DNA of 64,000 nucleotides from Asterochloris sp. CNOR1. Taxonomy: Eukaryota > Chlorophyta > Trebouxiophyceae > Trebouxiales > Trebouxiaceae. Shown here piece after piece: positions 1 through 42,639 of the stretch (position 1 is the first letter of the stretch; each line of letters begins with the position of its first letter). Below the pieces are notes generated by a model. It searched no databases. It worked only from the letters and a program-made list of their open reading frames with translations, and was not told the DNA's origin. A program made the position numbers and the translations under genes. The DNA is taken from NCBI GenBank assembly GCA_963969365.1, contig OZ017750.1, forward strand, positions 620,001-684,000, read 5' to 3'.

Positions 1-3000
1 GCGGAGGCTTCCCATACCTTGGCACCAGCCACTGCTGGCAGCTCGGCAGGGGCTGAGCCTGCCTGAGGATCAACTGCTGGGACTGACGTGTCCTCAGTAC
101 CCATGGGCTCGTCCTGGTCACCAGGCACCTGCTGCTGCTGACTTGTGCCTGTTCCAGCACTCCTGTTGTCAGCAGCAGCTGGCCCCAGACACGGCTCCTG
201 GCCACTCTGCACCGGCTCTGCAGCCGCTCTCTCTGGCTGAGCAGCAGCAGCCGCTGGTGCTGTCTGGCCTACTGTTGGCAGAGCAGCAGCAGCAGCCTGG
301 GTGACAGGTGGCTGCTGATGCTGCTCCTGGGCAGCACGAACTTCTTGAGCATCTGCCAAGCTGTTAAGCTGGGCCTGCGCCTGAGCAGCGCTGCTCATGC
401 TGGTGCTCAGGTGCTGAACTGGCTCAAATTGCTCGCTGCGCTCATAAAACAGCATGTATGCACTGTTGGGGCGGTCAAACTCCTGCAACTGCAAGGCAGG
501 GGGCCATAGTCAGCTGACGGCCTCATGATTGCACTGCATGCAGTCCCTGCAAATGAAAGGGGCATCCCTATAAAGCTTTGCCCCGCCATCATGTCAGACA
601 GAACACCAGAATGGCCTACCAGGAAGTAGACTGCCCAAGAGAACAGCCGCACAAGTCCACCTCAAGGATAGCTTCCCTCAAGCGATACAAAGCTTGAAAG
701 CCAATGCCCGCCAGCCGGCCTGACCTTGAATTGGTCATGATCGAGGGTTGTCTTGCCGCCAAAGCAGTCCTTCTCCAAGTTCTTGACGTCCCAATTGTCA
801 ACATTGACATCATCAAAGATCAGCCACTGGCTTGGCTTTTGGGGCTCACTGGCCCGCACCTGCACAGCAACACCTTAGCCTTTCTACATCTATGTGCCCT
901 GTTGGGGACAGGACAGTGACACCACTCAGGCTGTCAACAGACAATGACATTCAGAAACACAGCCTTGCCCAGCTTGCAGCTGATGCACTCATGCTTGTGT
1001 GAAGTAGCCGTCACGACGCTGACAAATACTAGGCTCAGCCAAACAAGGCATCCCGGCTGAGCTCACGCTGCTCACGACGTAATACTCCATGATCATGCCT
1101 CAGGGCAGCCTCAGGGCAGTATGTTGTATGGCCTGCTGTGTAGGGTGCCGTCGGAATGTGACCAAAAGGGGAAAACGAACGCGCATCAGCTCACAAGAGG
1201 CAAGCCAGAGACTGCCTGCCACATCCGTACCTTTATATATGAATAGTAATGGCCTGCGAACGCTGTGCCTGAGTGCACGACAACCCCCTTCAGCTCATAC
1301 AGGTACAGCGCCAGGTTCTGGTGCTTGGCAACGCCACTGGCACCAGCGTCAGCTGCAGAGAGTGGGGCGCCAGTGGCCTCAGCCTCTGCCAGCCCGTCCA
1401 CAGTGTATTTGTACATGTCCAGCTCCATGGGGAACTCGAACCTGGACAGGAAAGCTCCGTCTTGAGAGGAATCTGCATCTCAGGTGCATGATGCAAGACA
1501 TTGCCTGGGGCAGGCTGCAGCGGGGTCAGAAGTTGCAGCACAGGCGGGCACACTTCAAGCTACTACAGGCTGCAGCTCCTGCAACTAGGGAAAGCATGCA
1601 AAGGTCATGCCGTGGTCCCAATGGCGCATGCTGTCTCAGTCAGGGTCAGACACCGCTCACCTGTCCTTGACCTTCCAGCGGGACATGGTCTCATAGTCAA
1701 ATTCAAAGCGCTTGAGGTGAATCACAAGGGTGTGGGGCAGCGTCTTGAAGCAGTTGCGCTTGACAGCATCCACCTGCAGCGCCACAGCAGATGTGCACCC
1801 AGGCCCACCCAGTATATGCTGTGCAGGGGCTGCAGAGCATTGGCATCCCCCGACCCCTGACAGAAAGCAAAGCGATGCAAAGCTCAGGCCATTGCCAGAG
1901 CGCTGGCACAGTGGCTGGCAGGTCAGGCTCTGCCTGCAGGCCCTGCCAGCATGCCACATGCCAGAACAGATCCCACGCAAACAAAGTGCAGACACAGCCA
2001 GAAGTGGCTGACAGGCAGCAAGAGGCTGACTGATCTTGCCTTCTTGCCGGCCTTCTCACAGAAGTACTGGTTGTCCCCCTCCATGAGCTCCCCCTGGACG
2101 TACAGGTCCAGCGACTCGTGCAGGTTGCGCTTGCCGCGGACATCCAGGCTGACCTGAACCGGCACACAAGCAGGAGATGAGGTGATAGCTATGCTGGACT
2201 GCATGCCTCAGAGGCCTGTGTCACAGAGGAAGTCTGCCCATGCAGGTGCAAGCACTGCTTGGTCACAGAGGGGTTGACAGCTTGCTCATGCACCCAGCAT
2301 GCAAGTGACCCCAGATTGGCTACATGCAAGCAGCAGCTGAGGCTCCTGCCTTGAAAAGCGAAAGTGAGGCCTTGACACAGCAGGGCAGCTGAGGCTCCTG
2401 CCTTGAAAAGTGAAAGTGAGGCCATGACACAGCAGGGCCACCACCGCTGCTGAGAGTGGGGTGCCATCAGGAGCACTCCAAAAACAGGAGGTGGCAAGTG
2501 ATAGGCCACTGCAGTCCAGACTAGCTTGCTCTGGTGCTCCACAGGGCTTCAAGACCCCGCCTTAGGCACAACAAATGCAAGGCAGCACAGGACAAACGAG
2601 TGTTATATGAAGCCAAAGGGATCTTTGGCATGCCAAGCATGTGCTGTTACTTGACCTGCCGTTGCATGACGTGGCACAGACTGTGCCGCTGCTTCTCAGC
2701 CTGCAGACACGGCAAGCTGCCCAGAACATGCAGTGCTTGCCTGGTAGAACTCCTCTTCCTTCTCGCTCTGGTAGTCCACGCTCTTGCAGATGATCTGCTG
2801 GGCCATCTTGCCACCAATGACAGCCTGCATGACTGGCTGCAATTTGCGATCTTGGAGGTACTGATCCAAAGTGTCCTGCAGGCACAGCACAACTGATGTT
2901 TGGTGGTATAGGATGTAGCCAGCCTGATATCTGTCATAACAGGGCCGCTGCCATTCTGTCTCCAGCCTTTGCAGCAATGCAGGGGCCATGCAGCACGTCC

Positions 3001-6000
3001 CTCAGCTGTCTGCAGGGAAGAGCATCTGCTGGTGCCAAGATGGGGGATTGACATTGGACCAGTGACCTCAGAGCTGAGGGGTCTCCGTCTGCAGCAAGCA
3101 CAGCCAGGCAGCACTGAGCGCAAAAAGTTACCAGAGACGCCCGGCAATGGGCTAGAGCTCAGGTGCATAAGGCCTGTCCAAAGGTGTGGCAACAGCAGAG
3201 AGGCTTGCCTGCAGGCGAGTGAAGAACTCGTATGCATCCTGGTGCTCCCGCAGGTCCAGAGGCGAGCCGTCGTAGTCTCTGAATGCGTTCCAGAAGCCCC
3301 TGGGTATGCACCACCCATGGTTGCCAACTGCCAGCTCAGCAAACACTTTCTGCAGGTGGCAGATGAGGTCAACAACTCTTCTGCGGGGCGCAGGCACGGC
3401 GCAGCCTCAGCAGATGCATTCTGCATGGGCAGTGGGGTCCAGACCTGCTACCACTCTCTGACACCACAGGGAGGTGAGGTCACACGAATACATGAACAAC
3501 ACTTCTTGCAAGGGCCAGGAAGACGCAGACCCAGCGCGCCTCCAGCAAGAGATGGGCAAAGGGTCTGCACAAGCCCAATGCGGGTAGTTCAGACAGCTAA
3601 CACAGTGGTCAGTAAGCCCTATGCCTCGCCACACATAGACAGCAAGCCAGATGCCCTACCTGGAACTGAAGGAAGAGGTTCTCTTCAGGTGGGGCAGTGG
3701 GGGGGTCCTCAGCTGGCACAGCCAGAAGCAGCTTCCTGATGGATGGCTGCATGAAGAGCTGCTGGAAGACGGCGTTCATGTAGCAGGTTGCACCCCCATT
3801 CTTGAGCCCAATGTAGCTCCCTGTCTCCCTGCAAGGGGCACAAGAGGTGACTGCAGGTTCAGACTCACAGCAGCACGGCTGGGGGGATGCGCACAGCAAA
3901 GCTGGCGCCAGTCTTCCTGTGGAGAGCGCAGGCTGCCAGGTGTTGGTGACGGCAGTCGCACACCCACAGCACAGCAATCTCCAGCAAGGGTATGATGATG
4001 ACCTGAGATGCCCTGTCTGTGCAGCGCTGCCTCACATGGTGGCTGCAACTGATGCAAGCCCACAGCACACACTGAGACGCATGCTAGGCGCTCAAGCTGA
4101 TGGCAGATGGGGCACGCTGAAGCATGCTGCACCAAGAGCCCACAGCAACTATCAGCAGGTACCTTCGCGACCTACATAGTGCGGCAGACGCACACTGGAG
4201 CAAGCAGCTTATAGCCTGCCCATGATTAGCAACCAACAACTTGCCTGACTGAGACATCAGGGAGTCGATTGAACATCATTATGGGTTGCCTGTCTGACAG
4301 GTGCAGCTGCAGAATGAGCTCCAGGCCCTGTCGTAGATGTACAGAGCTGTTGCACATGAGCTTGCTCAGCAAAGCTAAGCCTGCCTGCCTGGCACTTTGG
4401 TGCCTGCAGCACAGTAAGGTGGCTGCTGGACGACTGCATCTGCTTGACTACTGCTTCAGAACCAGCACTGTAGCTTGAGGCAACAGCAATTTGGCATGCC
4501 CACACAGGCACATGCTGGAAACAACCAATTTGAACAGTGGCTGCTTTGCTTTTACCTGCATCGTGGCTGCAGCTGCTCCTGTGTCACTCTTGGCACTGCC
4601 CGATCTGCATGCTGGGCCTCACACCATGCCTCAGGAAAAAGATACTCTGCAGCAGCCAGAAGACATTATGCTGATCTGCAATTGCCTCCTTGAGTCTTCA
4701 AGAGCAGCTGTGGTAGATGATCACCTGGTGGTGGCTGCTTGCAACTGCCAACATGCATGTCCATCAGCTTTCCCATGCAGCTTGGCACTCACATGCATTA
4801 CCCTCACATGAGTCTTGCTCTCAGATTGCGGGCTGAGCAAGGACGACAGCCATTCAGAGCAGCAGAGCATCTCCCCTGGCGGCAACAGGTGCATCAGGCT
4901 GCCACCAGGTGCAAGCCTTGCACTTCGAGCTGCAACGGGCACCAGTGTAGGTGCCCTGCTTGGGACGCTACTTGACGCCAGGGTGACTTCCCAGCGCAGA
5001 CACCAGATGTGAGCGCTGCCTGGACAGCAGCCATGCAGGGGTGAACAGGGCAGCTCACCTGTCAGCAGCAGGTGTATGAGGCTGCGCCTGCCTGACCCAA
5101 ATCCGTCAAACTTTTGCAGCTCAGATATCAGGGCCTCCACCAGGCGCAGCTTGCCCTCAACACGCTGGTCCCTGTCATGCAGCGGACGCAGCTGAAAGAG
5201 GCTGGCCACCACCTTGTCCAGGCACTCGTGCATGGCTGGAAGGAGAGCAGCAATCTGCAAGCAGCAGGGGACTCGCTGGTGGAGAGCTTTTGGCATGCAG
5301 GGCAGACAGCATACTGGCTGCAAAAGCAGATGGCAAGAGCGCAGCAGCCTGCAGAGCAGCGGGGCAGACAGTCATGCATGGCTGGCAGAGGGGGCAGCAG
5401 TCTGCAGGGCAACAGAGGAGGTGCTCGCGGTGAGCATGTAGCATGCAGGCCATCAGCAGGGCAGAAGGCAGAATGGCTGGAACAGGCCCTGTCCAAAGCA
5501 TGGCAGCCCCCAGCACAGCAGGGCGGGCACTGTTGTGTGTTGCCGGAGGGCAGCAGCATGCAGGTAAACACAGGAGCAGGGAAGGATGCTGATCGGAGAG
5601 CAGCAGCATGGCGGACAGCTGCGGAATGCAGGCTGCATGGCAACAAGGCAGAACGTGCGTGGTGGAACACAACTGCAGAGCAGAGCAACAAGCACCAGTC
5701 AGATGCTGGCTGTGGAGCACCACATGCTCGCACATTCTGCAGCATGCAGGGCAGCATGGCTGCAGCTGAGCTTGACGTAAATGCAACAGGCTGCGAAAGC
5801 GCAGGACAGGCAGCGGTGGAACAGGCTGAAGAGCAGCAGACCGACGCGCACCCCTTTATTGTGTCTGCGACAGAGCTGGCGGCTGTTTGCAGCTAGATCA
5901 ATGAACCTAGGCTGACCATCCTGGGCAAGGTGATCCCTCCTCACAGCATGCAATGCATCCCGGTGCCCAATAATGCAAGAGCAGGCAACTGATGCCCAGG

Positions 6001-9000
6001 AGCAAGGGCACACCTGGACTTGTGAATACCGTTTGACGCAGATCACAAATGCGCGGTAGAAGAGGCCACACCACTCAGGCCTGTCCAGCGTGTAGGGCTC
6101 AGCAGCCACAAACAGCTCAAAAGCCCACTCATAAGCTTTGGGCAGAATGTCAGCCATCATTTTCTCGGCATGCACCTCTGCCTCAGGCCTGCTCAGAAAT
6201 AGGCTGGCCAGTAGCGGCCCAAAACCTGCACAACAGGAAGCCAAGGCATGGCTGGCATACGATCAAGCATTGCTACAGGTCCCAGTCGACTTGCGGCACA
6301 GGGGTAATGCCGCAGGAAAGTAGGGCAGCATAAGGAAAGTAGGGCAGCATCCAAAGAGCCTCTTTGGTCAAGACTCACCTGACATCTGAAGCAGTGGCTT
6401 CAGCATGGCAGGATGGTGGAAGATCAACGTCTGGCAACAGTACAGGCCCCAGATGGCATCCCATTCCTTCTCCTGCAGGAGAAACGGGCTGCATGTACCT
6501 GCTGCAAAGCCAGGACATGCAATCCAGAGGCAGCCACAGGAAACATAGCGCCACCATGCAGACAAAGCAACTGCTACACACAGAGGCAGCATGGCTCCAA
6601 GGAGACACTGCCAAGGAGCGCACTGTGAGTGTGTGAGATCAAGACAGGCTGCAAAGCATGTCAGCACCTGCCTGCCAAAGCAGGTGGATGTGACTGGATG
6701 GGCAGACCTGCCTCACCAATGGGACTGCGCTGATGACACAAGTGTTGGAAGGGGGTGTGCAGGACTGCCACCTGGAAGCTTGGACAAAGTAGTGCAGTAC
6801 AGATGACAAGGTGTCAGTGGTCAGCTGCAGCTTCTGGAAACGAACAGGCATGGCAGGTGCTGTGGCCACAGGAGCCATGGAGGTCTGGCTGTCTGGTACC
6901 ACAGCATCCTGGTCCGCAGCAGCAACAGCCACAGGGGACATCTGTCGCTGCTGCTGCTGTTGACAAAATGGACCTGCTGGCTCTGGGCCAGTGCCGTCAG
7001 GTGAGGCTGTGGGGGTTGCAGAGGACGGCGATGTGTCCTGCAGGAGCAGGACGTGCACCTCTTGCGTGCAGCCTGAGAGGGATGGTCAACATGATGCTAC
7101 CAGCCCACAGCTCCTCAGCACTTCACTCATCAGAGGCAACCCTGAGCCTGGCACTTGCAGGAATTACCTAACACATTGACCCAGTGTTGCCCCATATGTA
7201 CATTCGTCAGAAAATGAGCCAAAAGTCACCGAAGCATGAGCAGCTAGAAGCAAGAAGTCACTCTCTGAGGTAAGCAGGATCACCGCGCACCTGCATCTCA
7301 GCATCGCCTTGCACTGAACCAGACACAGCTGGGCTCAGCATTGCCCCGCCCACGGGGGCTGCCCCCGCCTGGGCCATGCTGGTCCTTTCCTTCTGCTCGG
7401 CAGCCACTTCACCTGGCGCCACGCTCTCTGTCAACGGCAAGGCTGCTGAGGAGAGCTGGTGCAACATCTCTCGGACAGTGCCCAGCAGATGGGACACATT
7501 GTTTTCGTTGCACTCATCTGCATTCAAGGCAGGCCAGTGGGATTGCAGGCATGTCAAGCGCCAGGTCTGCCTGCAGGAACTGCAGCTAGGCCAAATTGCA
7601 TTGTGTTGCAGGCTGTGCATGGCATAACACATGATGTAGACTGCGTGACTGCCCGTCAGAGCTGGTGCATTAATCTCCAGGTGGCAAGCTACTGTGTGGC
7701 TGCAAGCTGCCCAACACACCCCCAAGGTAGAGCCACAGTGCCAGCATCCCGAGGAGTCAGGGCAGCTGGCAGTTCAGCTACAGGCTGTCACTGTCACAGA
7801 TCAGAGACACACATTTGGCTCAGCCGTGCCATGCAATGGCACATCGGCATTGCGCGGAAGCTCTTATGTGAGATGTTGCTGACCAACGGGGCTTGCCTGC
7901 CCTTGACATTGGGCGCCTGCCGGCAATGTGCAGAACTTCCTGGACAGCGCTTCCACAGGCAAAGATGCGCACAGAGAACCTTCCACCTTCTTAGCAGACG
8001 GAGGGTGCTGTCCTAACAAGGCTGCAGCAGCGTTTGAAACTAGTTGATCAGCCTCTCAGCGGCCACAAGGCGCTGACCTGGCGCTGCGGCAGTCACTGTC
8101 CTGCTGGCGACCTGCAGTAGCTCCTGAAGGGCGCCACTGCAGGCAAAGGCGTTGCGCAGCTGCGCACTTATGGCCAGCTCCCCGTCAGCCTCGGCCACAT
8201 CCACTGGCACCTCTACATGTAGGCCCAGGTTGGGCTGAAAGAGGTTGTGACAGACCTGCAGGCAAGCCATAGAGTCAGCTACTCCACGCTGCTCAATTTG
8301 CAGCCTGCCTGACAAGCTCAGCCAACTGCAGGGAGGGCAGGAGTGATGCTGCGCCAGACCAGACTCCACGCAAAGGGAAATTTGCTCTGCAGACTGCCTC
8401 TGCTCGGCTAGGCGAGCAACGCTGCCACACATAAGCTCTGCTGAAGCACACTTACCTGCACAAGGTAGCGCAACCTGGCCGGGGGCAGTGCGGCGCTGCC
8501 AGCTGGCTGCTCCAGCATTGCAGCAAATGCTGGGGCTGGCTCCTCTGCGCTGAGGGCTGCCTGCACCTGGGCCTGCATGCCCTGGTCTGTAGGCAGCTTC
8601 ATAAGCAGCTGCCCTGCCACGTCGCGCAGGCTGCGGTCCGGCGCAAAGTCCGACAGCCACAGCAGCAGCTTGTAGACGTCAGGATGCTGCAGCAGACAGC
8701 CAGCACAGCCCTTCGGCATGGTACATTCAGTAGCACCTGGCTCTGACAGTCCGTGCCAGAGTCTGGCGACAGCTGCCGCTTCCAGGCTGCATCAGAGCTT
8801 GGGGCCAGTCAAGCAGCATACAATGCTTCAGCATAGTGCTTGCCCACGCATGCCCACAGCTTATGCAGTTACGTCCCAGGGCAGCAGGCAAGAGTGTGGA
8901 GAACAGTGTTGGCAGCTGTGTCAGCACTGTGCACCAATGACATATTGGGGACTGCAGAGCAGAACACCATGTCAAAGTTGATAACAACCATGCTCAAAGG

Positions 9001-24726: not shown

Positions 24727-24952
24727 CTGTGAGGAGCAGTAAGGCCGTAGAGTGCAGGTAAGATGGACATGCTGCCAATGTGGGCCCTACCAGGGGAGGC
24801 ACCAGGCGCAGAACAAATGCCACAAATTCAACCGCTGCACTGGCGTGAGCAGATCAGCAGTGTCTTGGGAAGGTACAGAGGCATTGTGCAGGAGAGCACT
24901 GGGTTACTGAGACGATGGCCTGCAGCATGCAAGACACATGCGACAGTAGCCT

Positions 24953-30900: not shown

Positions 30901-33900
30901 GTATGTCATTGCATTTGTGCTGGCCAAGCAAGTCAGAGATTACATATGCTTTTGCCTGCAGGGATGAGCATGAAGGGGCATCTCAGACCTGCACCTGTTG
31001 CTGACCTGCATGATGCTCTGTCCCCTCTTGAGCTGCTTCTCAGAGGAGAAGGTTGTAGCTTTCTGCAGCTGCAGGCAGGAGAGTATCTGAGGCCTGGCAC
31101 GGCCCCAGCATGAGCATGCCCATGTGGGATGCAATGTAGGCACTCTGCCACCGATCGTGCAATGCAGCCACAGGCAGGGTGCGGCTTGGGCAGGAGCTGC
31201 AGTGTGCCTGGCTGGCATGCAGTGCAGTCAGCAGCCCTGCGACAAAATGCAGGATGCTCGCTGCAGTCTGCATCTGCAGGCACAGGCTGGCTGCTGCTAT
31301 GGGTCACAGCATGGCCACAGCAAGCACGGATCTGCAGGCTGCATGCACTGGACCCAACTGGTGCCAGGCAGCACTTGCCTCCTTCTCCTTCTTTTGAGAC
31401 TCCTTCAGGGCCTTGGCACGCTGCTTTTCAGTTTCTCTGGCAACCCTGAAGGACACGAAGGCGGTTCAAGTGCTACTTCTGAACCAAGCAAGACCTGCAC
31501 TGCACTGGAGACATGTTGAATGCCTGAAGCAGGCGGTGAGGAAGGCTGCACCTGGGCATGTACCATGTCGTACAGGAACAGAGCAGTGTGGTGAGGCACA
31601 TGTTGTGCATGTGCCTTGTGCAGAGCTGGTGCGGCTTGATCCCAGCCAGCTGGCTTACACGTAAAGTGCTTGCCACACACTGCCTTGCAGCACTTGCCTG
31701 AGCCTCTCCTTCTCTGACTTTGCCTCGGCCCATACAGCCTCCTTTTCCGCTTTGCGTGCAGCCTCAGCCATCGACGTGGGCTTGCCTGGTGAGGTAGCAT
31801 CCCCTTGCCCAATCAAAGGTCCAGTCTGGGAAGCAGCACCCTGTGGGCAGAGAAGTTATGCTCAGCCGCATGCCCAGCATGTGTAGCATCGGCTCTTTCC
31901 TAGGCCAAAACACATAGGAAGCCCTCTGTCTGTCAGCTGCGCTGTTGATGGCCAGGGTGGCTGACAAGCACAAATGTAGTGATGTGCTGAGTGGCTCCAG
32001 CAGTGTTGTGCAGAGACAATGCGTAAGCCTTCCCTGGTGCAAGCATAGCGGCCTCAGCGGGTTCAGGCGCGGAGCCATCTAGTGGGCAATATCAATCTCA
32101 GCTCGACAGCTTGGCCACCCATCCTGGTGTACACACAGCAGACCAACTGCTGCTAGGGGCCAGGCCTGGCTGTCAGGCTGGGCCCACCTTGCGTGTGACA
32201 GTGTGAGGCTGCCACTCCTGTGCCCTGTCAGGGGCTGGGCCTGACTGCCAGGCATGCACGAGAAGCCCCTCTGTGACTACGCCTGACCGCCTAAGTAAGC
32301 ATGAGGCCCGCATGGGACAGCACCAGGCCGCTGCTCCTGGGACTACACCTGACCGCCTAAGTAAGCATGAGGACCCGCATGTGACAGCACCAGGCTGCTG
32401 CACCTGAGACCAGGCCAGACTGCCAAGCTTGTGCAAGAACTCACCTGTGCCGGCGCCAGCGTGCTGCTCCTGTTGGCTTCGCCCTCTAAGCAGTCCACCT
32501 CCATTGCCACCGGCTCCTCAAGCACCTGGCCAGCCGGCTGTTCTGAGCACCCCTGGCTCTCAGCAGCCTGTGCTGCCAGCTGGGAAGGGCCTGCTTGGTC
32601 CTCAGCAGGCGGTGCTGCAGCAGCTGTCACTGCAGCAGGCTGCGCATCCTTCAGGGGCTGAGCAGCTGTCTTGGACAGCTTCTCCAATGCCTTGGTCACC
32701 TTGTTCTGGGCAGCCTTGGTGGTGGCGGTGCTGCGCAGCGCTGTGCATGCGTTGTGCAGGGCGGTCAGGCGGTCCCGTACCTGCATCAAGGGAATGCTGC
32801 TGCAGCCAGGCGCAGCAGGAAGACGGCTTGTGATTGCTGTGACAGACAGTCATTGCCACCAGCAGCATGCCCCATGGGAGCCAATTCTCTGCTTTCTGTG
32901 CCCGTCACCAAGCAAGTCACATGCCTGAGACCAGGGTGTCAGGCTAGACTGGCACCTCTCCAGGGGCCTACTGACCCTCTGCATGCGCTTCTTCATCGCC
33001 ACAGCCTCCTCCCTCAAGCCCTTTGGCAAGACCTTGGCATCCCGCACCTCCCATCGCCACAACGCTGCGCCGCTGGTGTCTTCTGAAGCATCCAGAGCAT
33101 CTGCTGAGCCTGCAGGGCAGCCCAACATTTGTTGCCGGCGGAGTCGATGCAGAACAGTGTGCTTTCACAAATCTGCTTCTTACTGGCATCCACTGGGCTG
33201 CCTGCTGCTAGCCAGGAAGGTTGTGATCAGAACAGCCCACCTGTGCAAGCCTTTGATGCGCTGTCATTGCTGTACAGACGACAGGGAAGTGACACACAGG
33301 CTGCCCCTCAGCGGCGGGGTGCTCCTTCTGCACTGCTCAGCCCCTCACCATATTTTGCAGCAAAGCTCTTGCGGGCTGCCACCTCAAAGATGCAGCTTGT
33401 CACGGCCGTCTTGCTGAGGGTCGCTGTGCCAAAGATGCCCTGGATCTGCTGGGCCAGCTCTGTCAATGACTCTGCCTTTCCAGCCACCCACTTGGCCACC
33501 TGCAGCAGGGTGGCTTGTGATGACACGTTTCAGCGTACTCCTGGTGAGGCGGCCCAACACCCGGACAAACCCCAATTCAATCCTTTGCATCAGGCCCAGG
33601 ATTGAGCCGCCGCTGACAGAAGATGTGCTGCTGCCACAAGCTCCAGTAGCGGCCCATCATGTTGTTCAGCAATCCATTCCAGTGCTGCAAACCTACCTCC
33701 GCCTTCACCAGCCCCTTTGCCTTCTGTGCATCAGTGAGTGCGGCTGGCAGTGCAGCCAGGGGACTTATGGCGGCTGCATCCTTGACCAGCTGGCCGATAT
33801 CAGCTTCCAGCTGCTGCAGCAGGGCAGCCTTGGCCTCGGCACTGCTGGGCAGTGTCACTGCTGCAGCAGGCGCAGCATCCTGCTTGGCCCGCTTGGCAGG

Positions 33901-35452
33901 CGGCTGACTGTCTGCTGGGGCTGCCTCGCCAGCAGCGGCCCGCTTCGCAGGTGGCTGTGCCTTGGCTGAAGCTGCCTTACTGGCAGCAGCCTGGCTGCCT
34001 GCTGTTGAACCAGCTTCAGCAGCAACTCGCAGGGCCGCATTGCCTGCCATGGTGAGATCGGGAGTGCTAGTCCCTGGCAGAGCAGCTGCTGGTGGAGCAA
34101 CAGGTTGCGCTTCAGCTAGGTAGTCTCTTGCCTCCTTACCTGCCGCACCTGCAGCATGGCATGGCCAATTGAGCTGATGGGGGTTGTGGAGTGGACAGGC
34201 ACCAAAAGCATGCACTGCAAGCAGGTGCACATTTGAGGCATGCTGCACATGCTTTGAGAAGCCTGACACCTGCTGCATGGCATGCAGTGGCCCTCTGCGT
34301 AACGCTATCCATGCTACGCGCGTCACTTGCTTTACCTGTAGGGGCCTCTTCCAAGACTGCGCCCCTGCTACCTGTAGGGACCTCTTCCAAGGCTGCGCCC
34401 CTGGCCGCTCCCTGGCCACAGTTGCTGCCCCCCAGCTCAGCCCTGACCTTTGCACCCTCAGCTGCGGTGGCGGCCGCCTCGCCTCTCACCACAGGGCTTG
34501 CTTGGGCACAGGCAGCCTGCTCCATCAGTGCCTCACCCTCACCCGTGCTGGGAGACTCAGTGGGCTCATCAGCTGAGGAGCCCACGACAAGTGGCTGTGC
34601 TGCCGTGGCTGCGGTGGCTGCTGGCTGCTGGCATGCAGCAGGACCTGCCTGGCTGGTGTTCAGCTTGCCCACAGCAGGGCCGGCAGCTGCAACAGGTGGT
34701 CTCTCGTCGGCTGATTCAGGAGCCTTATCAGCCTGACGCCTGCGCACAAACCAGTCTGACACCTGCAGGCAGGCAGCGCCGCAGTGTGCAGTTGTTGTGG
34801 AGGAAGTGAGACAACAATTCAGGACACTCAAGAACTCCCCTGCTCCCCCAGCCCATCATGTTTTCCAATTTCCAAGCAAGCAGGACGCTGCCGGCTGCTT
34901 TCAACAGCATGCTGAGGATGCTGCTCCGGTTTCACTATGAGACTATGAGAGTATGAAGTGGCGCGAGCACCTGCTTGTCTGTCAGGCCCAGCTGCTGCGC
35001 GAGGGCCCCCCTCCTCTCCATATTAGGCTTGCTGACACTCTGATACAGGTCCTCCAAGGCATCCAGCTGGGACTGAGTAAAGTGGCCGCCACGCCTTCGT
35101 TTCTTCTCAGGCTGAGCAGCTGCTCCCTGAAGACAGCAAAACATGTGGGAGACTCAAGCCTGGTCTACTTTGCTTGCCCGACATGCAACAGAGCTGACAG
35201 TACATATTGACACAAGCCATGAATTGCACTGACCTTGCACTCCTCTACCGTTTCCAGCTTCACTGGCTGCGCTGATGTTCCTGGAAGGGCTTGTGGTTGC
35301 ACTGATGGCTTGCCCTCTGCCAAGCGGTCTCTGCTGCTGAGGCTGGCCTCGCCATCATCGGCACTGCCTCTAGGCCTTGCCTCTGTGCCATCCTCCTGCT
35401 TGGGCTGCATTGCAGCAGCCCACATACTGGTTAGCGAGTTCTTGACTGCCAT
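24953..35452 (-). CDS. FAS1: CAF-1 large subunit (FAS1/p150) with N-terminal homeodomain
   Basis: Replication-coupled histone chaperone subunit that deposits H3-H4 with PCNA. Exons (high to low): 35234-35452, start MAVKNSLTSMWAAAMQPK; 34971-35126 and 34336-34762, the homeodomain (residues about 81-140: FTQSQLDALEDLYQ, LGLTDKQVSDWFVRRRQ) then an Ala-rich linker; an exon from 34148 down to about 33610; 33349-33499 and 32976-33109 (LWRWEVRDAKVLP, as LWCWETRDLKMMP in Arabidopsis FAS1); 32445-32780; 31698-31840, 31379-31445 and 31006-31062, the basic-acidic KER region; 30776 down (SIMQSFLA PIP-like). Next come the SWKRRALP exon, PAYYGSFSRT and DPEVDYEVMSDEEWE with EPEGEDLL, the acidic DDDLEEDDSD, VICRLPGST, and a C-terminal winged-helix-like part (FVEAYPDRGLVKKW). 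Exon phases join the homeodomain to FAS1 without a stop. The 3' end is uncertain: the last exon with FAS1-like character ends near 24965 at a weak GT donor, so a further exon is possible. Several introns carry GC donors and exon-edge copies. Confidence 0.85.
25981..26104. repeat. Two tandem copies of a unit of about 60 bp
   Basis: CTGTGAGTGAGACA starts at 25981 and 26041. Both copies continue through CACTGCCAGCAGC and end AGAATGG. They are diverged in the middle and lie in a FAS1 intron. Confidence 0.9.
27312..27495. repeat. FAS1 exon-donor segment and a degraded downstream copy
   Basis: The real exon end (about 27414-27495; minus-strand HPGCMVLPGAVLQALEMQ) has a copy at about 27312-27395 reading NPRCCMTLAGAALKALDVQ, offset by about 102 bp and lying in the following intron. 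Both ends carry a GTG after the CAG. Confidence 0.75.
29150..29485. repeat. FAS1 AGLPPS exon start with two or three degraded upstream copies
   Basis: The real exon start (29150-29212, AGLPPSWSQREGAEERLRAM) is echoed at about 29341-29396 (AGLPPSQFRSEGAEERQ), about 29431-29485 (AGLPPSSS) and about 29281-29332. Spacing is about 80-100 bp. The copies lie in the preceding intron. Confidence 0.75.
29803..30145. repeat. FAS1 SWKRRALP exon end with three degraded downstream copies
   Basis: The real exon end with donor (30074-30145) has similar blocks at about 29981-30045, 29899-29966 and 29803-29868. Each keeps the TGCCAG/GTG-like edge on the minus strand and the GCTGTTCAGGG-like interior. Confidence 0.7.
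32272..32402. repeat. Two tandem copies of a unit of about 66 bp in a FAS1 intron
   Basis: CTGACCGCCTAAGTAAGCAT occurs once in each copy, at about 32283 and 32349, followed by GAGG, a short indel, CCCGCATG and GACAGCACCAGGC. Identity is high. Confidence 0.93.
34723..35105 (-). other. Homeodomain encoded across two exons of the FAS1 gene
   Basis: KKRRRGGHFTQSQLDALEDL opens a 60-residue homeodomain whose third helix follows the intron at 34763-34970 as KQVSDWFVRRRQADK. The core Leu16, Trp48, Phe49 and Arg53 positions fit. Position 51, nearly always Asn in DNA-binding homeodomains, is Arg here. Plant DDT-type (RLT) homeodomains also lack Asn51 (WFCHRR). DNA binding may therefore be altered, or the domain may be used for protein contacts. 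Confidence 0.8.
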
Positions 35453-35720: not shown

Positions 35721-38700
35721 ATGGGGGAAGACATGGAGGCACCAGCTGCAGGGGAGCAGACCCTGGCAGCCAAGATTATGGCGATCCAGAGGGACCCCAG
35801 CCTGACTGATGAGGAAAAGGCCAAGAAGCGCCAGGAGCTGATGTGTGGAAACTGGAAGGCTCAAGCAGGAGCGGACGAATCGGATGGAGGTGTTCTGGGA
35901 GTGCACTGCTGCAGCTACATTGTTGTGCTGGGCTGCTGCCCTGGGTGGGATGGTTCAGATATGTCTGCCCATGCTGAGCAACTCCTCCTCACATCGTAAT
36001 GCTGCATGAACAGCTGTGGCACCCTTAAGACGTGAGAGCTGCAGGAGAAACTTCTTGCACAGTCCAGGCAGTCAAAACATCAGCATCTGTTTGCCCTGCT
36101 GGGCTACTGTCACTTGCAAGATGGAGGATTCTGCTTGCACCCAAGGGGAACCTGTGCATGTCTTGCAGCTATTTCAAGTGCCAGATCAGGGAGCCAACTG
36201 AGTAGTAATCTGTCCATGGATCTCAGTTAAGAGTTTTCTGCTGCCGCTGCAGAAGAGGAAGAGGCTGAGGAGGCCGCTGCTGAGCCCCCGCCAATGTTTG
36301 ACGACAACCTGAAATGCGCCATGTGCATGGAGCTCTGTGTCAGGCCAATCACGGTGAGCACGCTGTGCATGACGACGCAATGTGTTGAGTAAAGACGGCC
36401 GCCCTTCCTGCCTTGAACCGGTTGCCAGGGGGGCAGAGCCTGCTTCATGCTGACGGGCTTGTTGCTGACTTGGCTGTTGATGGGGTCCAGTGCTATGTGT
36501 CTGCCTCCAGACCCACAGTGATGGGCTCGTAAGACCCTGGTGGTCACAGTGGAGCTCATTGGCAGGTGCAGGGGCACGCCCACCATCACATCGACCAGCA
36601 CTCACTGCCACTGCTGCAGGCCCCCTGCCAGCACAACTTCTGCCTGGCCTGCTTCAAGCGCTGGGTGGCCCAGGGCAAGAAGAGCTGCCCCACCTGCCGC
36701 CACAGCTTCCCTGCTAAATTTGCGACCAACCCCCGCATCAACACGGCGCTGACAGTGGCCATCAGGATGGCCAAGCAGGGCGTGCGCAAGCCGACAGCAG
36801 CCCAACAAGAGCGCATCAGAGACAAGGACAGGCCGGACGAGGCCTTCACCACTGACAGGTGCACCAGCACGCACCTGTCAGCTCAGTAATAGTCTTCCAG
36901 CTAGTTGCTGCCATTGAGCCGCTGCCCAATGCTTGACAGGATCTGCTGATAGGCTGGTGCGCTGCCTCCACCAGCCCAGAGCTCTTGAAAGCTGAAGCAG
37001 GGGGGTGCTGATGCTAGCTTGATCTCCTGCAGGGCTGTGCGCAATGGCAGGGCCAATGCGGCCAGTGGGCGCATCATGGTGACTGTGCCCAACGACCACT
37101 TTGGGCCCATTCCACCCTCAGCAGACCCCAGAGGCACGGTGAGGCAGCATCTGCAGCGCGTGGAATATTCTTTCACTGGGTCCTCATGGCTATGCTGTCT
37201 GATATGCGACAGCTCAGCGGAGCACCCTATGGCTCTTTCCAAAGGCTCACAACACTGCGTGCCGCATTGTAAGCTAGCAGGCTGCCAGAGGGGTCTCACC
37301 TGTGCAACTGTGTCTGCAACAGTGCATGAGGGTTGCCAAATCCTTAACAGCGGCCCCCATTGCCAGCCTGCAAGGCCGGCTGCAGCAGGAGGGATCCCAG
37401 GTCCTGGGCTGCTGGCGCCCCTGTATTACAGCCTGTGTTCTGTCTGCTCTGCAGGGTGTGCGGGTCGGCGAGCACTGGAAGGACCGCCTTGACTGCAGGC
37501 AGTGGGGCGCACACTTTCCCCACGTTGCTGGCATTGCAGGGCAGTCAGGCGTGGGCGCCCAGTCCGTGGTGCTGTCTGGAGGGTGAGATACCTGCATACA
37601 AGTGCCTCATCAGCAGTTAAGTCTGCTTGGGCAGACTGTCTGGCATGAGCCAGCTGCGAGCAAGTTCAGATTTCCTGCTGTGAGACAGGCTATGCTGCTT
37701 CACAGCCCTACCTGTCTCAAGTGGAGGATGCAGCCTGTGCTGTAAAATCTGCACTGCTGCATGGAACGCTGCCCAAGCCGGCAGTGAACCTGGTGTTTGC
37801 GAGCTTGTGCTGTAGGACATATGGGAACAGTCCTGCAGTGCTGTTATGCACGGAGCACGTAGCCTCGTGCAGGGGCACCCCACTTGTCCTGTGAGACATG
37901 CGATGCTACATGACAGGCTGTTTGGCTGCAGGTATGAGGACGACAAGGATGAGGGGGAGTGGTTCCTGTACACGGGCAGCGGCGGCCGAGACCTCAGCGG
38001 CAACAAGCGCACCAGCAAGGTGGGGCTGCAGACATGCTGTAAGCAGTTGTGCTGCCATTTGAAGTTCTGCGCTTGCACTGCCCTGTTCTGCAACAGGCTG
38101 GAGCTGGTGCTGGAGAAAGCTGCATTCGCAGTCCAGCAGACTTTGGCATGCAGGGGCTGACTCATGTGTATGCTGGCATCTGTGTGCAGGTGCAATCCTT
38201 TGACCAGAAGTTCGAAAACATGAACAAGGCGCTGTTACTGTCATGCCAGAAGGGGATGCCGGTGCGTGTGGTGCGCTCCCACAAGGTGAGACTCATTGTG
38301 CTGCATCCCTGAATTGCAGTTATGGATCTCTGAGGCAAGTACGTGCTGTCACGCATGATGAGTGCTGGACTGAGCCCACACCACTGTGCATGTGGCAGCA
38401 GGCATGTGCATCAGACCCTCACAGTGTTCAGCCCAGGAGCAGGCAGGTCCATGCATGATGCTCTGAGATGAGCTGTCACTGGTCCTCTCCAAGCAGTGCT
38501 CTCAGGAAACATCCTCTGCGCCCAGGCAATCTGCTGTCAATGTCATGTTTCTGCCCTACAGCAGGCAGCGGTTGGTCACCGTGCTTAACCCAGGACCAGC
38601 CTTGCCGAACGCAGACATGCTTCCCTGCATTCCTCATAGTGCCCGCAGGAGACGCAATCTGCCTGCGCGCATGTGCAGGGGAGGGCATGGCGATGCAGCC

Positions 38701-41700
38701 CCAGCAAGCCTGCTCCATGCTGCCTTGTAAAAGAAGCCCGACATAGACAAAGCAGCCATGCTGACACTCCCTGCACCCTTCATCGAGCCCTGCAGGATCA
38801 GCCATCAGCCTATGCAAGGAGGCAGTGGTGAAGCAGTACCAGCAAGCTTGCACGTGGCTGCTCTGCAGGAGAAGCGGTCAGCGTACGCGCCCACCCAGGA
38901 CCAGCCGGTGCGTTACGATGGCATCTACCGCATCACGCACTGCTGGCGCAAGGCAGGGGCCCAGGGGATGCTTATGTGCCGCTACCTCTTCCGGCGCTGT
39001 GACAATGAGCCGGCGCCCTGGTCCGTGGAGGGTGAGCACTGCTGCAGATCCTAGCGCTGTCCCTACATGCGACCCGGCACCTGCCAGGGCCTTGATGTGC
39101 ACAGCTGATGCGTCCAGCCTTTGCAGAGGAGCTAAAAGAGACCTGCGCAAGAGCCCGTGCTGTATCAAGCCCATGGCTCACTTTCGCTACCGGTCCACTT
39201 GACCGTGTAGCCATCTGGAGCAGCTGAGCTGGAAGGCTCAGACTGTGTACAGACGCAACATTGGGCCTTTAGCAGGCTGCAAGGCATGGCCACAGCAGCC
39301 ATTCTTTGGCCATCAGGCTGCCAAGCGTGAAGGCTTTCTGTACTACAGATGTGGGTGACAAGGAGCTGAGCAAGGAGCCGCCTGTTGAGGCTGCAGCGGA
39401 GATCAAGCAAGCCAAGGGCACAGTCTATCAGACCGTAAATGATGCCTGGTGGTGAGGGAGCCCAGCAGCACCTGCCCTGCCCGCTCCGCTGTGGCCATTG
39501 CACTGCAAGGCTGCAAACCCGGCCCAAGGCTGGCAGCATCTGCCTGATTTGCTGCAGCTCCATGCAACTGCGCTGGCTGTGTTGGTGAAGTACAGGCCTC
39601 TATCACATGAAACAGCAAGAAAGCTTCTGCGCTGCTGCCCTTGCTGGTGCACATCTGCACTAAGTCCCTCTCTGCAAGACAGGCTGAAGTCGGCAGCAGC
39701 AAAACCCTGCACTTATGCCCGCAGCAATGTTGTTTCATACAGATCTGTCTGGCGCCTGTGCAGGGACTGGAGCGAGGACAAGCAGGAGTGGGGCTGGTCT
39801 CGGGAGCCACCTGTCAGCCAGCAGCGCGGCGGAGATCCCAATTCTCCCAAGAAGATCCGCAAGAAAGTGGGTAATTTCTTCTTCTTGGATCTGGCAGCAG
39901 CATTGGATAGTGGGGGAAGGGATGGATCTCAGGTTATTGAGTGCTGCTGGCTAAGCGAGCTGTAGTCCGGTCCACTTTGCGACACACCAAAACTGCTCAG
40001 TCAACTCTTGGCTGCTGTCTGCATGCTGTTCACAAGCTGCCTCAGTACTGTGTGCCCAACTCCTGGGGGATGGCTGTGCACGGCAAACAGAGCCGTAAGA
40101 TGCAAGTGCCTACCGTACTGACCGCCTGGCAGGGTTTCCTCTGTAGCCAGACGAGGTCAGCCCAGGCACCCAGCACCGGCACACCCTGCGCTGCAAGTGG
40201 CAGCTGCACTGTGACTATAGCCTGACACCGCGCCCTGGCCGCAGATCAGCGAGGAGCAGCGCGCCCTGCGCGACATGGCCTGCCTGGTGTGCAAGGGCGT
40301 CCTGAAGGACCCGGTGTCCACCCCCTGTGGCCACCACTTCTGCAAGCCCTGCCTGGAGAAGAGGTTTGCGGTGAGGAGCTTCTCTGCAGGGCTGCTGGCT
40401 CATGCCGCCACGGCAGGGCACATCATGATCACCAAGGCTGGGAGCCCTCTTGCAGCTCCATTCGGGCTGCTGGTTGCGCTTACCTAAGGCAGGCTTTGGG
40501 GAAGATGGGAGATCACACACAAGATCTCGCCCCCAGAGGCATCTAACTTTGTTTGTGCTCACAACAACTGGCTGCCCCGGTACCTGCAGGTGCTGGAGTA
40601 GTTCGACGACCGCAAACTTGCATGCCCCCTTGTTATCATGTTTGTGTTCAGTAGACCCGTCCATGATCCTCCGCTGAAAGTGTCTGGGAGAGGTGGACGA
40701 CCGCACACTTACATGCCCCAAAGCTTGCCCACGCTGATCGTGTTCACAGGTCTCGTCCCGCCCCTCTTCCTGTAGGGTCTGGGAGACTTGGACAGCCGCA
40801 CTGCCCACGCCAGCAGCAGGTCCCTGCGTGTGCGCAAAGTGGTGAAGCCCTGCCCCTCCTGCAAGGCAGACATCGCGGACTTCCTGGGCCACGCCCAGGT
40901 CAACAGGTCAGCCGGTGCTTGTTGCATCACGTGTGTCCTTGTATGGCCTTCTGTGGCTGTTGCGGCCCCCCTGCAGCAGGCTTTGTTGTCTGAGGTCTCT
41001 GCTGGTTCAACAGGCACTGCAGGAGCCTACTCTGCGCTGCACCCTTCCAGAACATAGATGTCAGCCACCTGTGCGTGCTGCAGCTGCTGCTAGCTCTGCT
41101 GGGACGCAGCTGTTGCAGGGCCTGCATGTTGCAATTTATATGTCCAGCCTAGCAGCCGTTGTGCAGGGACATGGCGGCTGTCATCGCCAGGCTGCAGGCT
41201 AGCATCGCTGCCAAGACGGCCGAGGCTGCCAGCGAGGTGGCTGCTGAGGCAGAGGGCGTTGCCGAGGCTGCTGTGGCTGAGCTGGAGGCCATTGTGGAGG
41301 AGGAGGTGGGGACCCCAGTACCTGCCCACTGTGTGCCAAGCTGCTGCTGCTGGCAGACCCTTTTTGCCATCAAGGCAGTCATAGGGCTGCCCGTCTCAGC
41401 CTTGATGGCCACTTGCTATCTGGCACTGGCAAGCCACGGTGCAGCGACTGCAGAGTGGTTTGCACCCACGTACAAGCAACATGTCAGCAGGGGCACTGTC
41501 TGCCGATGCTGCCTACAGCGGGATGCGCCCCCTGCAGGTCACCGGGGGTCTTGCAAGCACTCAGTGCGTGCCTTGAAGAAGAGCAAGTGCAAGGCAACAT
41601 CTCTGCTTGCTGCTGCTGATGCAGGTGGACCCTGTCACAGATGGTGACGCAGGTGCAGCAGAGGCTGCCAGCAAGCCTGCAGATGCTGCCGTCCCTGAGG

Positions 41701-42431
41701 CAGTCAGCGTGCCAGCTGGGCTGGAGGAGGAGGCTGACGGTGTGGCTGGAGTGTCAGGTGGGAGTTCATTCGCTAACCTGACACTCACAGCAAGCAGATG
41801 CGTACAGCGTATGCAACAAGTGCACCTCATTTGGAGGCCAAAGGCAGGGGGCCGCGTGCCTGCTTGTTGGCAGCTGACGACCTCAAGCCTGCTTAGTAGG
41901 CAAGCCTGTGCTGACCCAGATTGTGTGCACGTGCAGCACTGGAAATCACGGAGCTGACGAAGCAGTTCCCAAGCATCGACAGGTCCCTCATTGAGGGCCT
42001 GATTGAGGACCAAGGTGGAGATGTGCCGGAGGTGCAGGCTACTCTGAGGGTGAGCTGGCAGGGCTCAGGGTGCTCAGCTGTGCTGCTGTGAGGTGTGCCA
42101 TGTCAGAGGCTGCTGCAGCAAAGTTGGCCACAGTCAGCTGTGACATGCTTGCCTGCAGAGAATGATCAAGCAGGAGGCAGCTGCCGCAAAACGGGCGCAC
42201 GCAGAGGCAAGGAAGGCATCAGCGGCTGCAGCAGCCGGTGAGTTCCTTGGACTTCAGCAGTGCTCTCAGATTGCTTCATGCTGTTTGCCCTGACTGAAAC
42301 AGCCTGGTGATGCAGATGGAACAGACATCAAGGTGGATGCAGATCCAACACCAGCCAAAGGCGTGAAGCGTGGTGCAGGAGGCAGCTGCAGCAATGCTGC
42401 CAAGCGTGCCAAGGTAGCATCTCTATCCTGA
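35721..42431 (+). CDS. ORTH: ORTHRUS/VIM (UHRF1-family) E3 ligase, RING-SRA-RING with C-terminal CUE-like segment
   Basis: Seventeen exons (35721-35889, 36253-36353, 36620-36858, 37033-37138, 37455-37582, 37932-38019, 38190-38285, 38869-39031, 39349-39451, 39764-39870, 40245-40370, 40775-40906, 41167-41305, 41624-41757, 41937-42049, 42159-42237, 42316-42431) total 2139 nt, 712 aa. RING1 at about residues 78-115 ([22 protein letters not shown]). SRA/YDG domain at about 170-385, with [14 protein letters not shown], the pocket motif [24 protein letters not shown] and YDGIYRI. RING2 at about 436-515 ([24 protein letters not shown]). An acidic Ala/Glu-rich stretch follows, then about 611-650 resembles a CUE domain ([20 protein letters not shown]), and a short Lys-rich end. 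VIM proteins bind hemimethylated CpG through SRA and maintain CG methylation. No PHD finger is visible before RING1, unlike VIM1-5. It shares its promoter region with FAS1. A TGTAA word lies 102 nt past the stop. Confidence 0.92.
38556..38915. repeat. Acceptor plus exon-8 start of the SRA gene and an upstream degraded copy
   Basis: The real edge at 38863-38915 (CTGCAG then GAGAAGCGGTCAGC to CCAGGACCAGCC) resembles 38556-38609 (CTACAG then CAGGCAGCGGTTGG to CCAGGACCAGCC). A weaker block at about 38700-38750 shares the CCAGCAAGC lead-in. Confidence 0.65.
40589..40811. repeat. Acceptor plus exon-12 start of the SRA gene with two upstream copies
   Basis: The real exon start at 40775 (GGTCTGGGAGACTTGGACAG) is echoed at 40681 (TGTCTGGGAGAGGTGGACGA) and at 40589 (GGTGCTGGAGTAGTTCGACG). 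The period is about 92-95 bp and the flanking intron bases are similar too. Confidence 0.8.
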
Positions 42432-42639
42432 GCCCCTTGAAGTGTCAGTCAATGAATGAATCTTTTGGAAGCAACCCTGTCTCAAACGTGAATGCATGCG
42501 CTACACGAACAGATGACAACCCAATTATCAAATGTAATTGATGAGCAACTGTGATACATGAAGCTTGGTTGAAGCTGAAGCAGGGCAGAAGACAATTCGC
42601 AAGGGGCAAGCTCCATGCATGGAACAGGGGTGGGGGCAG

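Follow-up and report, generated by a model that had tools for sequence, protein, structure and literature searches.

Does the homeodomain encoded on the minus strand of a 64,000-nucleotide stretch of the Asterochloris sp. CNOR1 genome (contig OZ017750.1, positions 620,001 to 684,000; hereafter the window, in whose coordinates all positions below are given) belong to the same protein as the large subunit of the histone chaperone CAF-1, whose exons follow it on that strand? The original prediction, made from the sequence alone, had proposed that the two are spliced together in frame. We find that the DNA is best read in this way, and that a single fused polypeptide is probable; one messenger spanning both parts, its splicing and its translation as one chain are what we infer from that reading.

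We built a 20-exon model on the minus strand, running from a start codon at 35452 to about 24963. Exon 1 (35234-35452) supplies the start codon and 73 residues beginning MAVKNSLTSMW (in-frame coding score +16.8), exon 2 (34971-35126) carries the homeodomain through Q44, and exon 3 (34336-34762) carries the remainder of the homeodomain (VSDWFVRRRQADK) followed by an Ala/Glu-rich linker. These exons are 219, 156 and 427 nt long with outgoing phases of 0, 0 and 1, exactly the lengths and matching phases first proposed, and exon 4 (34148-33697, 452 nt) is entered in phase 1, as the exit from exon 3 requires. Exon 4 continues the linker, passes through a stretch resembling a nuclear localisation signal (PPAKRAKQ) and then enters FAS1-like sequence (LEADIGQLVK...), FAS1 being the plant large subunit. 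The joined frame is open across exons 1-7 and then onward into exon 20. Intron 3 (34149-34335), the critical intron of the fusion, is 187 nt long and non-coding in all frames. The last part of exon 3 (34407-34336, minus strand) is a tandem 36-nt near-repeat, identical at 30 of 36 positions, which duplicates the donor region, so that a splice variant differing by 12 residues in frame is possible.

That exons 1-3 hold a homeodomain behind their start codon was borne out by profile searches. The 80-residue spliced stretch matches PF00046 at 53.5 bits (E 2.1e-14), with 38.3 bits coming from exon 2 alone and 47.7 bits obtained in the full model, and the domain spans residues about 82-141. Numbering its residues from W48, we found that F8, L16, Y20, L40, V45, W48, F49 and R53 are all kept. 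The junction between exons 2 and 3 falls directly after homeodomain residue 44, which is the ancestral 44/45 split, and it thereby gives independent support both for this splice and for a genuine homeobox. When the genome (56.4 Mb, 21 contigs) was searched with profiles exon by exon, a procedure that makes all match counts lower bounds, the sole homeodomain over cut-off was the one in the CAF-1 gene. Among the best 60 of 188 matched sequences of solved structures, the closest were animal DUX4 and PRD-like homeodomains, at E 4e-8 and weaker; the one plant protein that we recognised among these 60, PDF2, stood at 3.7e-5.

Other assignments of the domain were tried and set aside. It is not of the TALE type, since 52 residues fall on 52 PF00046 positions with no net insertion between helices 1 and 2. 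Homeobox_KN reached 23 bits on this stretch, below its cut-off of 24, and gave no match across the genome in a search where no control rang either, which makes it weak as an absence. Membership of the DDT class was likewise rejected, the full model giving no DDT match at E up to 1.

The gene downstream of the homeodomain exons is, judged by its dimerization domain, a CAF-1 large subunit, as had been proposed. CAF1A_dimeriz (PF12253) matches the full model at 53.8 bits against a cut-off of 25, and the human CAF1A chains of 7y5k are matched at E 4.5e-12. In the genome search this profile gave one match, in the fusion gene, and the FAS1 N-terminal part also gave one locus. Exons 5-7 (33499-33349, 33109-32976 and 32780-32445) hold the LWRWEVRDAKVLP block. 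Exons 8-10 (31840-31698, 31445-31379 and 31068-31006) encode a charged stretch that by eye resembles the KER region (AEAARKAEKEAVWAEAKSEKERLR...KKEKE) and ends in QSIMQ, to which exons 11-12 (30776-30607 and 30220-30081) add SFLAK. The completed QSIMQSFL resembles a PCNA-interacting peptide (PIP), and by eye fits the consensus Qxxhxxaa, as given in PMC9570017, except for L at position 8; the same source places the CAF-1 PIP at the C-terminal end of the KER. The dimerization domain and the acidic region follow in exons 13-15 (29197-29026, 28581-28476 and 28123-27994), and the C-terminal region in exons 16-20 (27632-27418, 26712-26619, 26346-26246, 25718-25586 and 25108 to about 24963). Three of the 19 introns in the model are of the GC-AG type, with GC donors on the minus strand at 31697, 31378 and 29025, after exons 8, 9 and 13 respectively.

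At its 3' end the gene is uncertain: exon 20 either reads to a stop near 24828 or splices onward. Past this end lie further coding-like minus-strand stretches (24726-19842), into which the exon phase would permit the CAF-1 frame to run; those pieces of them that were scanned gave no Pfam match over cut-off. The C-terminal region of the model, where a winged helix would be expected, gave no Pfam match at E up to 1, and the FAS1 N-terminal part gave no match among PDB sequences at E up to 10. MLKL_N (18.9 bits, cut-off 27) and YdaS_toxin (15.4 bits, cut-off 30) also appeared in the model, below their cut-offs, and were taken as chance. As for the expected partners, the MSI1-like family is represented in the genome by a CAF1C_H4-bd match over cut-off.

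To decide whether the two parts are joined, we used a codon model trained on the FAS1 exons 5-20 of the same gene. Exons 1-4 scored positive, and best of the three frames in the proposed one, in all 12 tests (four exons at three Markov orders), and introns 1-3 scored negative in all frames, intron 3 giving -33.1 bits when read as coding. The acceptor at 34148, which leave-one-out scoring kept out of its own splice-site training set, scored 14.3 bits, the highest of 19 leave-one-out values; the 128 kb of both strands contain 15 acceptors as strong, itself included, and within coding exons 5-20 its score is reached at none of the 1965 positions. Donor 34336 is ordinary (7.3 bits, with 209 equally good in 128 kb). 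If intron 3 is left unspliced, the homeodomain frame meets no stop until 34136, 85 nt before an ATG from which FAS1 could begin, having read through the 187 nt of intron-like sequence. Separate genes are therefore disfavoured, because a homeodomain protein ending at 34136 requires intron 3 to be translated and because the acceptor that would close that intron is the strongest of the 19.

Two genes side by side on one strand, or a single bicistronic message, would yield a homeodomain protein ending at 34136 (or at 33384, by way of the exon 5 acceptor at 33499) and a FAS1 starting from 34050. Bicistronic messages with short gaps between open reading frames (ORFs) are described for green algae, with medians of 183 and 40 nt in PMC11291117, where the gap here would be 85 nt, and both the good context of ATG 34050 and the 18.3 bits of acceptor 33499 speak for such an arrangement. 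However, the version ending at 34136 must translate intron-like sequence and leave the highest-scoring acceptor unused. Moreover, the first ORFs reported in the same paper are short (median 291 nt in A. protothecoides), whereas this one would measure some 1 kb, and ATGs ahead of the second ORF are described there as selected against, whereas 11 precede 34050 in the spliced form. We therefore regard two genes or a bicistronic message as very unlikely. An assembly or gene-model artefact, with homeodomain exons that come from a remnant or a misjoined piece, deserves almost no credence, given intact open frames, the coding statistics, good splice sites, and a single contig with an ordinary neighbour gene.

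A separate FAS1 start codon downstream of the homeodomain had been named at the outset as an observation that would speak against the fusion, and as sequence it is present: an in-frame ATG at 34048-34050, in CTCACCATGGC context. The locus might then yield two products, the long fusion and a conventional FAS1 begun at 34050 from an internal promoter or an alternative first exon, in which case only some of the CAF-1 would carry the homeodomain. The context of this ATG and a coding score that climbs just past it agree with such a scheme, and acceptor 34148 could receive an alternative 5' exon; against it, 11 ATGs (the first included) lie before 34050 in the spliced message, so that scanning alone would rarely arrive there. 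A short FAS1 in addition to the fusion is thus possible, though as an account of the locus we think two products unlikely.

Several further points weigh against the join. By the usual Kozak rule the context of ATG 34050 is better than that of ATG 35452, and the FAS1-like sequence begins about 80 residues past it. Within exon 4, the 96 nt ahead of this ATG are codon-neutral (-0.1 bits): 97% of 76 true coding windows score higher, and 96% of 441 open-frame intron windows score lower. Acceptor 33499, the next best at 18.3 bits, would, if used from donor 34336, instead yield a short homeodomain product with its stop at 33384. When the codon model was instead trained on exons of the UHRF1-type neighbour (a small set of 972 nt), exons 1-4 scored negative in 10 of 12 tests, the exon 4 that contains FAS1-like sequence included, with the proposed frame still the best of three in 10 of 12. 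For exons 4-7 (the LWRWEVRDAKVLP block and what precedes it) and for the C-terminal region, the likeness to Arabidopsis FAS1 is a presumed one. The CAF1B/HIR1 propeller (PF24105) gave 31 genome matches, none over cut-off, and the FAS2-like cluster, four pieces on C7, reached at best 79.3 bits against the cut-off of 80.5.

The poly(A) signal TGTAA does not occur from 35452 to 31660, an interval that includes the homeodomain-FAS1 boundary, and it is likewise absent past the FAS1 end down to 21881; as the FAS1 end itself has no TGTAA nearby, this test does not discriminate. Five scans of viral and prokaryotic contig collections yielded no relative confirmed by tblastn, a result uninformative about algae. 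In the viral contigs, patterns from the homeodomain, the FAS1 N-terminal part and the dimerization alignment matched 25, 29 and 173 stretches, and in the prokaryotic genome contigs the dimerization alignment matched 484 and the first 513 residues 112.

Looking at the join from the donor side, we found 30 acceptors above 6 bits between donor 34336 and 33020. Thirteen of these lead into the FAS1 frame of exon 4, one into that of exon 5 and two into that of exon 6, while two run into the 34136 stop and another 12, with 33499 among them, enter other frames with early stops. Truncated homeodomain forms produced through alternative acceptors, 33499 included, are accordingly possible.

If the fusion is real, what would the homeodomain do? 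Its canonical DNA-reading residues R5 and N51 are absent, being replaced by G5 and R51, and D47 and V50 are also unusual; in the alignments with DUX4, too, this R stands against an N. Among 106 homeodomains of Drosophila, PMC5575656 gives R5 for 99, and it calls W48, F49, N51 and R53 highly conserved; for plant WOX homeodomains, PMC8329861 describes Asn51 as specifying an adenine. By its residues, the homeodomain fold should form and the usual base readout should not, and canonical reading of a TAAT-type site is unlikely. Non-specific DNA contact is still possible, given the basic N-terminal arm (KKRRRGG) and R51-R53. A DNA- or protein-binding module had been suggested; with positions 5, 47, 50 and 51 unusual, protein docking or non-specific DNA contact would be likelier than the reading of a specific sequence.

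The single-copy gene would encode a single chain about 1,185 residues long, in which some 240 residues of low-complexity linker, rich in Ala and Glu and including the NLS-like stretch, separate the homeodomain from a plant-type CAF-1 large subunit. Most likely this fusion protein would work as an ordinary CAF-1 scaffold, contacting PCNA through the PIP-like motif past the KER region and DNA through the KER, and handling H3-H4 by its acidic region together with FAS2- and MSI1-like partners. In yeast CAF-1 the KER is a main DNA-binding part (PMC10335832). The homeodomain would most likely be an addition to the N-terminal region, making non-specific DNA or nucleosome contacts or offering a surface for protein docking, a role as an accessory contact module that we propose because its usual base-reading residues are changed. 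CAF-1 is usually regarded as blind to sequence and brought to DNA by PCNA and generic DNA contacts (PMC10335832 and PMC9570017). A bolder proposal, that the homeodomain steers nucleosome deposition behind the fork towards certain sequences, shapes of DNA or partners, and that the fusion is old and has been kept in a green-algal clade, strikes us as distinctly doubtful. The fusion itself, if confirmed, would be a natural case of a targeting or docking module added to the CAF-1 scaffold and of a homeodomain retained outside transcription control, and it would offer a test of whether the p150 N-terminal region can direct the placement of new nucleosomes. It would be surprising, though for a homeodomain that lacks the usual reading residues.

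Upstream of the fusion gene, and divergent from it, lies a gene of the UHRF1/VIM/ORTHRUS type on the plus strand (35721-42432, limits by eye), with a SAD_SRA match at 167.6 bits and a zf-C3HC4 match at 26.7 bits; a second RING can be seen by eye. The two start codons are 268 bp apart. Proteins of the UHRF1/VIM/ORTHRUS type act at replicating chromatin, and it is possible that one promoter, of an S-phase type, is common to both replication-linked chromatin genes. With such sharing, the CAF-1 promoter would lie ahead of the homeodomain exons, in keeping with the fusion.

Known systems offer several points of comparison. Plant DDT-class homeodomain proteins (RLT1/2, partners of ISWI) likewise place a homeodomain in a chromatin-assembly protein, whereas no DDT domain is matched in the fusion. 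The only other homeodomain signal in the genome search, at C2:1315533, reached 19 bits, under the cut-off, about 4 kb before DDT matches, and reads KPNPTLDERRALAERIDLTEQQVQ then AWFTHKRRQQTK. The surrounding piece (C2:1312500-1322000, at about 2890-3260 and 7100-8300 within it) holds a candidate homeodomain-DDT protein of RLT-like type. Its AWFTHKRR has H where N51 is usual, so that neither this homeodomain nor that of the fusion has N51, and by eye the two share KPN and LA, LT, QV, WF and R residues, whereas the candidate's homeobox intron falls behind QVQ and not at 44/45. The two homeodomains may share an origin.

The literature that we searched, which left most subscription papers and the algal proteomes outside its scope, contained no report of a homeodomain-CAF-1 architecture, and a CAF-1 large subunit with this added N-terminal module would be unreported there. 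'Chromatin assembly' occurs nowhere in the accessible text of the algal homeobox papers PMC6476727 and PMC6219170, nor in that of PMC4901127. For human p150 the word 'homeodomain' occurs nowhere in the text of PMC9570017. The N-terminal region of human p150 is itself likewise an N-terminal extension with accessory contacts, and its PCNA-binding domain is dispensable in replication-coupled assembly (PMC9570017). Like FAS1, CHAF1A and Cac1, the predicted protein has a dimerization domain and an acidic region, as well as a stretch that by eye resembles the KER and ends in a PIP-like motif; unlike in them, its FAS1-like part would be preceded by a homeodomain some 60 residues long and by a linker of some 240.

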